Positions 16,637 through 22,856 of a stretch of 64,000 nt of DNA are shown here, piece after piece. The translations under genes were made by a program, and so were the position numbers. Source of the stretch: Geminocystis sp. NIES-3708 (lineage in GTDB: Bacteria; Cyanobacteriota; Cyanobacteriia; Cyanobacteriales; Cyanobacteriaceae). Numbering within the stretch: the first letter of the stretch is position 1; the number at the start of each line of letters is the position of its first letter. The stretch is from positions 1,425,656 to 1,489,655 of the forward strand of contig NZ_AP014815.1 of NCBI RefSeq assembly GCF_001548095.1, in the 5' to 3' direction. Under the pieces are notes generated by a model. That model saw nothing but the letters and a program-made list of their open reading frames with translations. It searched no databases and was not told the origin of the DNA.

Positions 16637-18313
16637 CTAAAAGTTAACTAAACGAGAGCGTAAAGTTTCTAATCCTAAACGTTTTTCCGCAGAAATAAAT
16701 AATGCTTGAGGATAATTATTCTTAGCGGTTTCTAAATGTTCACTATCAGCTTTATCTATTTTATTAAATACGATTAATTCTATGTTTGGTGCTAAAGGCA
16801 TATCTGCTAAAATTGCTTTTACTGAATTAATTTGACTTTCCCATGTTGGGTGAGATAAATCTACCACGTGCAACATTGCATCGGCTTCTGTTACTTCTTC
16901 TAATGTTGCCCGAAAAGAATCCACTAACTGAGGGGGTAATTCATGAATAAAACCGACAGTATCTGTTAATAAAATAGTGCGAGATTCACTGGTATTTTTA
17001 TCAGTAATGGTTAGTCTTCTGGTGGTAGGATCTAAAGTGGCAAATAGCTTATCCGCAGCGTAAACTTCAGCATTCGTTAAAGCATTGATTAAAGTCGATT
17101 TCCCTGCATTAGTATAACCGACGATCGCCACTGAAGGTATTTCTTGTTGTTGTCGTTGTTGCCTTAACCTTGATCGATGATTCTGTAACTGATTAACTTC
17201 TTGTTGCAGTCTAGTGATTCTTTTTTTGATTGCTCTTCTTTCGGTTTCTAGTTTGGTTTCCCCTGGTCCTCTTGTACCAATACCACCTCCTAACCTTGAC
17301 ATAGCTTGACCTCTTCCTGTTAGACGGGGTAGCATATATTCTAATTGAGCTAATTCCACTTGTAATTTGCCTGCTCCTGATTGTGCCCTTTGAGCAAATA
17401 TATCTAAAATTACTTCTGTGCGATCAACTACTCTTACGCCGAATTGTAATTCTAAATTACGCACTTGAGCAGGAGATAATTCTCGATCAAATGCTACCAA
17501 ATTTGCACCTAAAGTTTGCACTTGTAAAGCAATTTCTTCAACTTTTCCTGCACCAACCAAAGTTTGAGGATGAGGATTTGAGCGTTTTTGTTCGATGGTA
17601 GCTAATATTTTACCTCCAGCACTATCTACCAATAAGGCTAACTCTTGTAAGCTATCTTGAAATTTTTGTTCTGTCATCTTTGCCGTCATCAAGCCCACTA
17701 ATAATACCTTGTCCTCTTGAGATGAGACATCCTGGGCGATAAATTCTCGACTAAATTCAGCCTCTAAACTATCCACTAAATCCAGAAAATCTTGCTCGGC
17801 GAGATCTTCTAAATCTTGTGGTGATGACACTTCCCAATATGTATCATTTTCAGAAATAGGCAATAAGTGTGCTAAATAAGTATCTTTAATAAAACCACTA
17901 GCTCCTCCTCCCTTACGCATAACGCCACCTCCTGTGAGAGAAAACATTACCAAGGCATCTAATCTTTGCCGTGCCATAGCTGTTAAACAAGCCTCACTAG
18001 GAGCATCAGATTTCAAAGACGTAGCTAAACAACGAATACCCGATAATCTTTCTGCACCATAACGAGGTAATTCTAAAGGGGGGATTTGAGTTTGACGGGG
18101 AGTACCAACCCCCACTCGAATAACTTGTCCACGGCGGTTTAAATAGACGCAAACAGGCTGTTTAAGATCAGTACTAATAGCAGCAATTCTTTCAGCCAAT
18201 TCTGTAGTGGTTAGGCGATCGCTACGGATACGTTGATGATAAAGTTTTTGTAATTGTTTAAGTTGGTTAGGCTTTAAACCTTGAAGATTACCGTAAATAT
18301 TTTCAGTGGTCAT
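16637..18313 (-). CDS. hflX: HflX, ribosome-associated GTPase
   Basis: 558 aa. The HflX N-terminal nucleotide-binding domain (GRGQAMSRLGGGIGTRGPGETKLE motif region), the coiled coil (ERRAIKKRITRLQQEV) and a Ras-like G domain: G1 GYTNAGKS near 404-411, G3 DTVGF, G4 NKID and G5 SAEK. HflX splits stalled or hibernating 70S ribosomes under stress. The cyanobacterial version is longer than the E. coli one because of an extra N-terminal domain of about 170 residues, seen here. It lies downstream of psaI on the same strand, separated by a repeat element. Confidence 0.94.
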   Translation of the reverse strand: MTTENIYGNLQGLKPNQLKQLQKLYHQRIRSDRLTTTELAERIAAISTDLKQPVCVYLNRRGQVIRVGVGTPRQTQIPPLELPRYGAERLSGIRCLATSLKSDAPSEACLTAMARQRLDALVMFSLTGGGVMRKGGGASGFIKDTYLAHLLPISENDTYWEVSSPQDLEDLAEQDFLDLVDSLEAEFSREFIAQDVSSQEDKVLLVGLMTAKMTEQKFQDSLQELALLVDSAGGKILATIEQKRSNPHPQTLVGAGKVEEIALQVQTLGANLVAFDRELSPAQVRNLELQFGVRVVDRTEVILDIFAQRAQSGAGKLQVELAQLEYMLPRLTGRGQAMSRLGGGIGTRGPGETKLETERRAIKKRITRLQQEVNQLQNHRSRLRQQRQQQEIPSVAIVGYTNAGKSTLINALTNAEVYAADKLFATLDPTTRRLTITDKNTSESRTILLTDTVGFIHELPPQLVDSFRATLEEVTEADAMLHVVDLSHPTWESQINSVKAILADMPLAPNIELIVFNKIDKADSEHLETAKNNYPQALFISAEKRLGLETLRSRLVNF

Positions 18314-18765: not shown

Positions 18766-19257
18766 ATGAGTACTGATTTAATTAATTGCGGTAACGATCC
18801 TCAAGTAGGAAATCTCTCTACTCCCGTCAATGGATCTGCTTTTACTAAAGCCTTTATTAATGCACTTCCTGCTTACCGTCAAGGTTTGTCTGCTAATCGT
18901 CGTGGATTAGAAATTGGCATGGCTCACGGTTATCTATTATACGGACCTTTTGCAGTCTTAGGACCTCTTCGTTTAACTGATTATGGACCTACTGCTGGTT
19001 TATTGGCAACTATTGGTTTAGTTTCTATCCTCACCATTTGTTTATCTATTTATGGAGCTGTAGGAGTTGGTAAACCTACTGAAACCCTTACTACACCTAA
19101 TGTTCCTTTAGATTTAGCTTCAAAAGAAGGTTGGAGCGAATTTGCTGGTGGTTTCTTATTAGGTGCTTGTGGTGGTGCGTTTTTTGCATATTTTTTATGC
19201 CAAACTCCTCACTTAAAACCCTTAATTGAAGTTGCAAGTGGCGTTTGGTCATCATAA
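18766..19257 (+). CDS. psaL: Photosystem I reaction center subunit XI, PsaL
   Basis: 163 aa, full length. The conserved N-terminus carries DPQVGNLSTPVN, the region GLEIGMAHGYLLYGPF provides the chlorophyll/carotenoid contact helix, and the last helix (FAGGFLLGACGGAFFAYFL) is the trimer-contact helix. PsaL forms the monomer-monomer interface of cyanobacterial photosystem I. A ribosome site AAGGAG lies 15 bases before the ATG, somewhat far. It is divergent from psaI and ends in a strong terminator. It is not next to psaF/psaJ. Confidence 0.96.
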   Translation: MSTDLINCGNDPQVGNLSTPVNGSAFTKAFINALPAYRQGLSANRRGLEIGMAHGYLLYGPFAVLGPLRLTDYGPTAGLLATIGLVSILTICLSIYGAVGVGKPTETLTTPNVPLDLASKEGWSEFAGGFLLGACGGAFFAYFLCQTPHLKPLIEVASGVWSS

Positions 19258-19363: not shown

Positions 19364-21016
19364 CTATTTATTATTATCAAAGTTAATCGCAATTTGATCG
19401 CTTTTTATTTCTGTTTGTTTTTCAGCACTTTTTAACACTTCTAATACTAATCTTATATCAAGTCTTTTTTGTTCTTCAATTATCTCTCTTACGGTTATTA
19501 TAGAAATTTTATCTACAGGATTATTCATAAATTTACTTTGATAAATTCCTGCTTCTTTGGCAGTCTTAATCATATCTTTTGTCGGTTCATTAAGAGTAAG
19601 AAATATTCCTAAAGTTGCCTCATTTATAGCAATTGTGCCTAATAAATCTCGAATATCACCTGATTTTACCTTACCAGACTTGACTTGAATAATAATTTTT
19701 TCTGGTTTATCTTTTCCACTATCAAAATAAGCGATACCATCAATGCCTTTATCAGCACCTTTTTTATCGTTAATTATTGCACGGTTATTGGTATAGGTTA
19801 AAACTGCCCATTTTTCAAATTCTTTACGTGTGCGATCGTCTTTTTTTAATGCCAATGCTTGGGCAGATTCCATATCTTTAGGAATACCATTAAGAGTAAT
19901 ATTTTCTAAAACTCCTTTGCCGAAACTATCTTCTAAACGCTTTAATATTAAACTAATACTTTGATAAGTTATATCAATGCCAATCCAATTACGATTTAAA
20001 TCTTGAGCAACTTCAACAGTTGTACCGCAACCGCAAAAGGCATCTAATATCACATCGCCTTCATTGCTACTGGCTTTGATGATTCTCTCTAATAATGCTT
20101 TAGGTTTTTGCGTAGGATAACCTAATCTTTCTTTTGCTTGAGAAGAAATAGGAGGAATATCATCAAAAATTTGTTGTATTAATTGTCCTTTATTTTCATC
20201 TAAATAACGCTTAATTCTAATACCTCCTTTTGATGTAAAATATAAGCGATTTTCTGCGTCTAATTTCTTCATAGTTTCTAATGGGCAACGCCAATAACTT
20301 TTTACTCCTTTATATTCATATTCATAACCACCACCACTTAAACCTTTTGCCGTTAAATTATCACTAGCCCATAATCTTCCATCAATATCTTGATAGCTAT
20401 AATCTTTTAATCTTTTTTCTGATAAATTACCGTATTGAGGATTCCAATTATATTTTTTAGCATCTTTAACATAGAATAAAATAATATCATTATTGCGTCC
20501 AAATCTTTTAGTTGCATCACTATGAGATGTTGTTCTTTTCCAGATAATTTCGTTTAAAAAATCACCACCTTGGGAACAAAAAATGGCATCTAATATTATT
20601 TTTAAATAATGAGATGCCGAGGGATCACAATGAAGATAAAAGCTACCTGTTGGCTTTAAAACTCGGTGTATTTCCATTATTCTTAAAGTCATATTTACTA
20701 GATATGCAAATAAACTTCCCTTACCTAAAACTTTCTGTAAACCACAAATTAAATCTATACTTTGTTGAGTAAATTTACCGTGATAATTTTCTTTAATTTC
20801 AACTAAACCAAGATTTGCTAAATCATCTCATGTCCAAGTATCAATAAAAGCCTGTGCTTGAGCTCGATCTTCTTTACCGATATTATTATAAATTTAGTTA
20901 TAATTACGCTTAGAATTAAAAGGTGGATCAATATAACATAAATCCACAGATTCATCTTTAATATGTCGTCTTAAAACTTCTAAATTATCACCATAAAATA
21001 GTTGATTATTATTCAT
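19364..21016 (-). pseudogene. Fused DNA methyltransferase/restriction nuclease, broken by two stop codons
   Basis: Read from ATG at 21016, the frame starts MNNNQLFYGDNLEVL, contains the catalytic CYIDPPFNSKRNYN (motif IV, DPPF) and would run 550 codons, but is cut by TAA at 20894-20896 (a Gln position is likely) and TGA at 20828-20830 (in DTWT-stop-DD, where Trp is likely). The remaining open part from ATG 20692 (442 aa) keeps the TRD, SAM motif DAFCGCGTT near residue 218 and a C-terminal Mrr-like nuclease with GIDG and QVKSG (the D-QxK pattern), but lacks DPPF and so should not methylate. The order of motif IV before motif I is beta-class. It is a fused, type IIG-like restriction-modification protein. 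The stops look like simple C-to-T and G-to-A changes. Confidence 0.85.
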
Positions 21017-21153: not shown

Positions 21154-21699
21154 ATGAATATTGCTCTCAAAATAGCTCACTTAATTGATTTAATTACCGA
21201 ATGGTACGGTAAGGTTGTTTACTGGTTAGTTTTGATGATGATTGGTATTGGTGTATGGAATGTGATTGGGAGATATATTGGTAAGATAATTGGGGAAAAT
21301 TTAAGCTCTAATAGTTTAATTGAATTGCAGTGGTATTTGTTTGATTTAATTATCTTTTTGGGTGCAGCTTATACTCTTAAAAAAGATAGTCATGTCAGGG
21401 TTGATATTTTCTATAAAAATTGGTCTTCAAAAACTAAAGCCTTAGCTAATATTGCAGGAATAATTTTATTTTTAATTCCTTTTTGTGGAGTTCTTATTTA
21501 TTTTTCTTGGCAATATGTCATTAATTCATGGCAAATAATGGAAATATCTCCTGATAATGGTGGATTACCTCGTTATCCCATTAAAACCCTCATGATTATT
21601 AGCCCTATTTTATTAATTATTCAAAGTATTTCTGAGTTGATTAAAAATTTAGATATTTTCTTAAATCATTCTGCTTCAACTATTAATAACAATTCTTAA
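21154..21699 (+). CDS. TRAP transporter small permease (DctQ), apparently orphan
   Basis: 181 aa with four membrane segments (about 20-40, 62-80, 96-118, 145-165) and the conserved DctQ region ELQWYLFDLIIFLGAAYTLKKDSHVRVD. In a TRAP system DctQ pairs with the large permease DctM and a periplasmic binding protein to import organic acids with sodium. Neither partner is next to it here: the next gene is on the other strand and encodes an arsenite exporter. Partners must lie elsewhere if the system works. Confidence 0.88.
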   Translation: MNIALKIAHLIDLITEWYGKVVYWLVLMMIGIGVWNVIGRYIGKIIGENLSSNSLIELQWYLFDLIIFLGAAYTLKKDSHVRVDIFYKNWSSKTKALANIAGIILFLIPFCGVLIYFSWQYVINSWQIMEISPDNGGLPRYPIKTLMIISPILLIIQSISELIKNLDIFLNHSASTINNNS

Positions 21700-21716: not shown

Positions 21717-22856
21717 CTAATGTCTAATTAATCGAGGATCTAATAAAGTAGCTTTTTCAGGTTCTCTTCTAAACCAAAATGCAGTTTTTTTACATATTTC
21801 TACTAACATTAACATAACGGGAACTTCAATTAAAACTCCGACAACTGTCGCTAATGCAGCACCTGAATTTAAACCGAATAACATCACCGCAGTGGCGATA
21901 GCAACTTCAAAATGGTTACTTGCTCCAACTAAAGCGGCTGGTGCGGCATCTTCATAAGTTAAATCTAGTTTTAAAGCGATAACATAGGTTATTAAAAAGA
22001 TAAAATTAGTTTGAATAAATAAAGGAATTGCGATTAATAAAATATGCAAAGGATTATTAACAATTAACTCACCTTTAAACGCAAATAATAAAATTAATGT
22101 TAATAATAAAGCAGAAATAGCAATAGGAGAAAGATATTGTAAAAACTGATTTTCAAACCATTTTCTGCCTTTATATTTAAAAATAAAATAACGACTAAAA
22201 ACAGCACAAATTAAAGGTAAACCGACATAAATTACAACAGATAAAACGATGGTTTCCCAAGGCACAATTAAATTATTTGCTGATAATAACCATTTACCTA
22301 AAGGTGCATATAAAAATAACATCGCTAGAGAATTTACTGCTACCATTACTAAAGTATGTCCTTGATTACTATAAGATAAATATCCCCACATCAAAACCAT
22401 CGCAGTACAAGGAGCAATACCTAATAAAATTGTACCGGCAATATAAGAATTTGCTAGAGTAACTTGCGCACCCCTAATGATTTCTGTTTGAGTTAATAAA
22501 GGAGAGAATAACCAACCAAGAAAAAATTTAGCGAATATTACCATGGAAAAAGGTTTAATTAACCAATTCACCACTAAAGTTAAGATTACAGGTTTAGGAG
22601 TTTTTGCCGCTTTTACTGCTTGAGAAAAATCTATTTTCACCATGATGGGATACATCATAAAAAATAGACAAATAGCAATGGGAATAGAAACGTTATAAAT
22701 ACTCATGTTATCCAGAGTTTTTGCTAGATCTGGAAATACTCTCCCGAAGCCAATGCCTAAAATAATACACAGAATAATCCAAACTGTTAAATATTTCTCA
22801 AAAAAACTTAGATTACTACCAGCTTTTACCGCCGAGGGATTAGTTTGATTATCCAT
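21717..22856 (-). CDS. acr3: Arsenite efflux transporter, ACR3 family
   Basis: 379 aa, about ten membrane helices. Characteristic motifs are the substrate-cysteine helix GIAPCTAMVLMWGYLS (the conserved Cys of ACR3) and the ASNHFEVAIATAV helix. ACR3 exports arsenite across the plasma membrane using the proton gradient. It is the last gene of an HTH-arsR-acr3 group on the minus strand, with a 108-bp gap after arsR that contains dyads fitting an ArsR operator. No arsenate reductase gene is visible nearby. Confidence 0.93.
   Translation of the reverse strand: MDNQTNPSAVKAGSNLSFFEKYLTVWIILCIILGIGFGRVFPDLAKTLDNMSIYNVSIPIAICLFFMMYPIMVKIDFSQAVKAAKTPKPVILTLVVNWLIKPFSMVIFAKFFLGWLFSPLLTQTEIIRGAQVTLANSYIAGTILLGIAPCTAMVLMWGYLSYSNQGHTLVMVAVNSLAMLFLYAPLGKWLLSANNLIVPWETIVLSVVIYVGLPLICAVFSRYFIFKYKGRKWFENQFLQYLSPIAISALLLTLILLFAFKGELIVNNPLHILLIAIPLFIQTNFIFLITYVIALKLDLTYEDAAPAALVGASNHFEVAIATAVMLFGLNSGAALATVVGVLIEVPVMLMLVEICKKTAFWFRREPEKATLLDPRLIRH

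Follow-up and report, generated by a model that had tools for sequence, protein, structure and literature searches.

The window, by which we mean the whole 64,000-nucleotide stretch of DNA that was analysed, comes from the freshwater cyanobacterium Geminocystis sp. NIES-3708 and contains a silenced single-chain methyltransferase-nuclease gene of 550 codons on the (-) strand (19364..21016). Very probably, this gene belongs to a family of single-chain restriction-modification enzymes and was inactivated very recently.

The silenced gene

Read from 21016 to 19364 on the (-) strand, the gene translates as a single frame that is interrupted twice, and only twice, before its terminal stop: by a TAA at codon 41 (20894..20896) and by a TGA at codon 63 (20828..20830). 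Catalytic motif IV, DPPF, occupies codons 30-33 (20918..20929) by sequence and numbering, 5' of both stops. The list of open reading frames gives a residual frame of 442 aa from an internal ATG at 20692 (19364..20692), and this frame retains the variable target-recognition region that is exchanged among family members (codons 163-290; 20147..20530), the SAM-binding motif I, FCGCGTT (codons 327-333; 20018..20038), and a C-terminal nuclease domain with D426...Q444-V-K446, supported by a Pfam match to Mrr_cat and a structure model (codons 381-550; 19367..19876). All of these features lie on the (-) strand. Pfam matches of the 442-aa frame are to N6_N4_Mtase (1e-40), Mrr_cat (4.4e-9) and NA-iREase1, an 'inactive' nuclease family (1.6e-7). 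These observations bear out the original prediction, which described a methyltransferase-nuclease fusion silenced by two stops, with the catalytic DPPF in the lost part and the SAM motif and a D-QxK nuclease in the part that is kept; intact relatives of the fusion exist.

In an intact member, a beta-class amino-methyltransferase with its recognition region between motifs IV and I would be joined to a C-terminal Mrr-type PD-QxK nuclease and, judging from this architecture, the one recognition region would direct both the methylation of host sites and the cutting of unmethylated foreign DNA. As the first stop in the window copy lies eight codons past DPPF, the native start would yield a 40-residue peptide only, and methylation and nuclease activity would presumably have been lost together at that step. 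Because both activities reside on one chain, such a loss need not leave a nuclease without its methyltransferase. The second stop would then be a later or near-simultaneous neutral hit.

Relatives and surroundings of the gene

The original prediction proposed a search for an intact homologue, and one is present in a congener (genome G004, L081:4524-6167): a 547-aa gene that is 91% identical to the window frame over residues 3-548. Since the silenced frame aligns over this length with an intact gene of the same genus, it is not a product of chance. The copy in a second congener (G001) is 92% identical, has no stops and is cut by the end of its contig, so that the relatives without stops comprise two congeners (91-92% identical) and many more beyond the genus. 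The G003 copy is 78% identical to the window copy, and the near relatives include loci of Geminocystis sp. GBBB08. In G001, solitary end fragments (contigs 17, 64 and 122) were considered as gene remnants and rejected; each is at a contig end or no more than about 100 bases from one, so that they look like assembly breaks.

The window and G004 have the gene in common and not its surroundings. Their DNA similarity ends approximately at the ends of the gene (query 116-1762 against a gene at 107-1759), and the 60 bases upstream of it are 35% identical in an ungapped comparison. In the window, the silenced gene lies near a GTPase gene (16637-18313), presumably HflX-like, a gene that we take from its sequence to be psaL-like (18766-19257), a DctQ transporter subunit gene identified by Pfam (21154-21699) and a gene for a sodium-symporter-family protein (21717-22856). 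The intact G004 copy is at another locus, and the psaL-like gene is 1.3 Mb from it. No exact empty insertion site was found in congeners, where the flanks of the window gene match separate places.

A second family copy in NIES-3708 (G000:C1:3215720-3217379; L084:5727-7380) is also broken, and its three pieces are 66-77% identical to the intact copy of G008. Because it is spread over three frames, it is probably an older wreck than the window copy. A third match in this genome (G000:C1:1601131) was rejected as a family member, as it adjoins an ApaLI-like nuclease. This nuclease is part of a different broken system (L004:1693-2823; G000:C1 about 1601000), in which the nuclease is split into two frames and the neighboring methyltransferase contains a stop. 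NIES-3708 is not free of methyltransferases, with 8 places that match the C5 methyltransferase family and 14 matches to N6_Mtase, some of the latter being pieces of one gene.

Timing of the inactivation and alternative explanations

Conservation was measured in two sets of relatives. The bacterial set derives from 63 loci in which ORFs were required to contain DPPF and TQKP, giving 57 ORFs and 52 after the removal of identical ones; these two motifs are conserved by construction, and frames without them, including broken copies, are absent from the conservation counts. The viral set consists of 80 ORFs from 78 of the best 80 of 533 viral loci. Each stop had been predicted to be one substitution away from a likely residue (Gln and Trp codons), which agrees with the bacterial members: the residue concerned is the modal one, found at codon 41 in 47 of the 52 bacterial members and at codon 63 in all 52. 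Among the ORFs from the best 80 of 533 viral loci, the codon 63 residue is kept in 80 of 80 and the codon 41 residue in only 9 of 80. The window copy differs from the 52 other members at just one of the 102 columns that are conserved in at least 95% of them, and that column is the second stop.

Codons changed in one of three copies (window, G004 and G001) were then counted by branch, codons absent from any of the three being excluded. We counted 4 missense, 38 silent and 2 nonsense changes on the window branch, as compared to 21 missense and 42 silent changes for G004 (Fisher p 0.005) and 20 and 35, respectively, for G001 (Fisher p 0.004). Neutral drift would be expected to produce about 2.8-3.7 missense changes per silent change. 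The ratio of 4 missense to 38 silent changes is far below this expectation, which argues that selection acted on the window copy along almost the whole of its branch and that the stops are recent. Judged in this way, the window copy appears to be an ordinary, very recent pseudogene of its family.

The same counts keep alive, as an unlikely rival, the explanation that the stops are base-call or assembly errors and that the gene is intact. Apart from the stops, the window copy is strongly constrained, beyond its sisters, as a live gene would be. The two stops are 22 codons apart and accompanied by hardly any further damage, which is mildly improbable under neutral decay: the second stop would be preceded by 4 missense changes or fewer with a probability of 0.06-0.07, and by none with a probability of approximately 0.005. 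This pairing lends sequencing error some weight. However, the usual errors of GS FLX+ and MiSeq reads are indels and low-coverage miscalls, not two clean substitutions, and similar stretches elsewhere in the genome (76% over 167 bases, 66% over 512, 73% over 170 and 78% over 63) are too diverged for misassembly. The NIES-3708 genome is, moreover, a finished one that was sequenced with both GS FLX+ and MiSeq reads (PMC4424290).

It is likewise improbable that the 442-aa frame is translated from its internal ATG into a functional truncated protein, such as a nuclease or a DNA-binding protein without methylation. Although the recognition region, motif I for SAM binding and the residues of the nuclease are all retained in the frame with few missense changes, stops as recent as these make that constraint uninformative. 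The truncated protein would start inside the methyltransferase fold, some 75 residues past the catalytic motif, and the fold would miss its first strands and motif IV. No ribosome-binding-like stretch was found before the ATG at 20692; this argues little against its use, since none was found before the native start at 21016 either. The family ORF list, for which DPPF was needed, neither shows nor excludes relatives truncated in the same manner. In principle, the product of the 442-aa frame could be a nuclease that has a recognition region but no accompanying methylation. The viability of the strain suggests a silent frame or an inactive product, in line with the original prediction.

Readthrough of the stops by recoding or a suppressor, with the full-length enzyme still being made, is very improbable: the high constraint of the frame and nothing else favors it, whereas readthrough would be needed at two different stop codons, the long frames of the window (44 mechanical frames of at least 150 aa) end in TAA, TAG and TGA in 29, 8 and 7 cases, respectively, and the psaL-like gene ends at a TAA, its 163 aa matching over the full length in all five genomes of the genus, its own included. 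Very recent inactivation of the gene is the explanation that we prefer.

Architecture of the family

The order of elements in the family is DPPF (30), the variable recognition region, FCGCGTT (327) and the nuclease D...QxK (381-550). When the mean share of the commonest residue is calculated in ten-residue blocks for the 52 bacterial members, it is 0.29-0.56 at positions 161-290 and 0.56-0.96 elsewhere, except in the last 20 residues. N6_N4_Mtase and Mrr_cat were both detected by Pfam on one chain in all five intact members scanned.

In beta-class amino-methyltransferases, motif IV is followed by the recognition region and then by motif I. The methyltransferase part of a structure model of a full-length relative (L037; pLDDT 79, pTM 0.67) has EcoP15I Mod, MboIIA and RsrI among its top structure matches, and MboIIA is also the best match of the 442-aa frame by sequence. 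The title of the RsrI PDB entry reads beta class. On account of the IV-recognition-I order and these nearest structures, the family methyltransferase is predicted to be a beta-class amino-methyltransferase.

A model of the window nuclease domain (pLDDT 83) matches MspJI (Z 9.8, 122 residues, rmsd 3.4) and other PD-(D/E)xK nucleases as well. Foldseek alone gave no nuclease match at E <= 0.001, the best being EcoO109I at 1.7e-3. D426 and K446 are kept in 50 of the 52 bacterial members, the other two being gapped, and in 80 of 80 ORFs from the best 80 of 533 viral loci. Position 444 is less uniform: it is Q in 44 bacterial members, S in 6 and a gap in 2, and it is Q in 50, S in 29 and E in 1 of those same 80 viral ORFs. 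The resulting D...SxK motif, with D and K retained, occurs in viral loci L118, L132 and L185 and in bacterial loci L019, L070 and L077. The conservation of D426 and K446 across bacterial and viral members argues that the nuclease is used. We infer from these sequences that intact members methylate and cut DNA and that one recognition region would serve both activities; for restriction, this is to be read with the fact that the nuclease domain also matches the Pfam 'inactive' family.

No recurrent partner gene was seen beyond clade synteny and short ORFs when 47 loci were judged by eye. Twenty-five ORF clusters recur in at least three of these loci, and no Res, the helicase-nuclease encoded next to Mod in Type III systems, was seen among them by eye from the first 60 residues. 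Res is likewise not among the four neighbors of the G004 copy that were scanned with Pfam, namely a hydrolase, a histidine kinase, a DUF922 protein and one without a match.

Variation of the recognition region

The 53 sequences, counting the window copy, form 1,378 pairs; in 134 of them both ends reach at least 80% identity, and 104 of these have a middle that is less than 35% identical. Identity of the middle is two-humped in the 134 pairs, with 116 below 50%, 18 at 60% or above and none in between. At 60% identity, the middle of the window copy clusters with those of seven other members. At the DNA level, the Microcystis genes at L044 and L053 are 94.7% identical over bases 1-524 and 96.1% identical over bases 895-1656, with no match in between, and the genes 2-3 kb downstream are common to both loci.

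Nine cyanobacterial loci have the family gene within about 2 kb of mnmG, a gene that, like psbB below, we name from its sequence. In six of them (L040, L041, L046, L048, L049 and L060) the family gene lies between mnmG (about 2 kb) and psbB (about 3 kb). The other three (L036, L047 and L055) have the mnmG side only, psbB being absent from the 5 kb examined of L055. At the six mnmG-psbB loci the ends of the gene are 85-98% identical, yet 13 of the 15 pairs have middles with an identity of 11-24%. One chromosomal site thus holds unrelated recognition regions, a pattern that we read as allelic cassette exchange.

Tandem copies show similar variation. Thiospirillum jenense has four (L056:3195-10196) with ends that are 93-99% identical and middles that are 10-32% identical; the first three are 8-18 bases apart by their ORF ends, and the recognition region differs in all four. 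Two copies about 800 bases apart are found at each of two further loci (L204:1840-5621 and L205:1588-5472). The alignments indicate that the recognition region is swapped as a cassette, both at fixed loci and among tandem copies, while the ends stay up to 99% identical.

Short copies of the 5' end without the remainder of the gene were also observed (L083:5799-5882, L056:7813-7893, L198:2149-2215 and L199:1958-2001), two of the four just downstream of intact copies. They are perhaps recombination footprints.

Phage members

Of 50,697 phage records, 377 match the family, 28 of them over at least 80%. The member in Streptomyces phage OzzyJ (L207:2971-4605) is one small gene away from a serine integrase, and that in Marinitoga phage MPV1 (L208:2716-4272) directly adjoins a CI-like repressor; because of these neighbors, both phages would be temperate. 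The two members are annotated only as methylase or methyltransferase, yet Pfam detects Mrr_cat in each of them (6e-7 and 5e-10, respectively). Phage copies that are annotated as methylases and nevertheless possess a nuclease half may be exclusion systems.

Relation to known restriction-modification systems

According to passages of a 2014 review of Type II systems (PMC4081073), in most combined enzymes the nuclease is N-terminal, the methyltransferase belongs to the gamma class (NPPY/F/W) and the recognition module is C-terminal or forms a separate subunit; domain exchange and divergence of specificity are described there for Type IIC/IIG enzymes (MmeI, BcgI and Eco57I), and BtgZI is described as having an alpha-class methyltransferase first and a C-terminal nuclease with Q for E. 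As in those Type IIC/IIG enzymes, a methyltransferase and a PD-(D/E)xK nuclease share a recognition module in the present family, so that both activities would change together. Both domains are found in one protein, as in Type IIC, in the intact members; the window copy carries stops. In Type IIC enzymes, SAM often stimulates cleavage. Unlike in most Type IIC/IIG enzymes so described, the family has the IV-recognition-I order of the beta class and a C-terminal nuclease: with DPPF at 30, FCGCGTT at 327 and the nuclease at 381-550, the majority Type IIG form of an N-terminal nuclease and NPPY/F/W is not what we observe. BtgZI resembles the family in having its methyltransferase first and a C-terminal PD-QxK nuclease, but its alpha-class methyltransferase, as the review describes it, differs from the beta-class order and structures seen here. 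As far as these passages describe the known forms, the predicted layout of the family matches neither the majority of combined enzymes nor BtgZI.

The methyltransferase fold and motif order are those of Type III Mod (EcoP15I), MboIIA, RsrI and CcrM; unlike Type III Mod and the stand-alone beta-class enzymes, the family has a fused C-terminal nuclease. With Mrr and MspJI it has in common an Mrr_cat domain with D...QxK and, in the model, a similar fold. Those nucleases cleave DNA that is modified and have winged-helix or SRA-like domains, as stated in part of a 2025 review (PMC12707154), whereas the partner of the nuclease in this family is a methyltransferase. The same part of that review makes no mention of a beta-class methyltransferase with a C-terminal nuclease. 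COG4636, as presented in part of PMC551604, was rejected as the nuclease family here, being another cyanobacterial nuclease family. Our literature search found no paper describing this architecture and none pairing Mrr_cat with N6_N4_Mtase; REBASE, which lay outside the search, may well list members. A search on restriction-modification gene loss and cyanobacterial methylomes found nothing on Geminocystis. The family is little described, and we regard it as a variant of the combined restriction-modification enzymes.

Implications

Of more interest than the broken copy is the family to which it belongs. We give an even chance to the proposal that the intact relatives form a distinct single-gene class of restriction-modification system, in which a beta-class methyltransferase with a central exchangeable cassette is joined to a C-terminal PD-QxK or D-SxK nuclease, and which resides at fixed loci, in tandem arrays and in phages. 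In such a class, replacement of the cassette would switch the specificity of a host or phage in one step, and one nonsense mutation would remove both activities. The broken copy is nonetheless well timed, as its relatives show it to be a restriction-modification gene caught just after its loss. Swapping of the recognition region, both among tandem copies and at fixed loci such as the mnmG-psbB site, provides natural sets of enzymes that are almost identical except in their recognition parts. Such sets are suited to decoding specificity and to testing how systems of this kind can be lost without self-killing.
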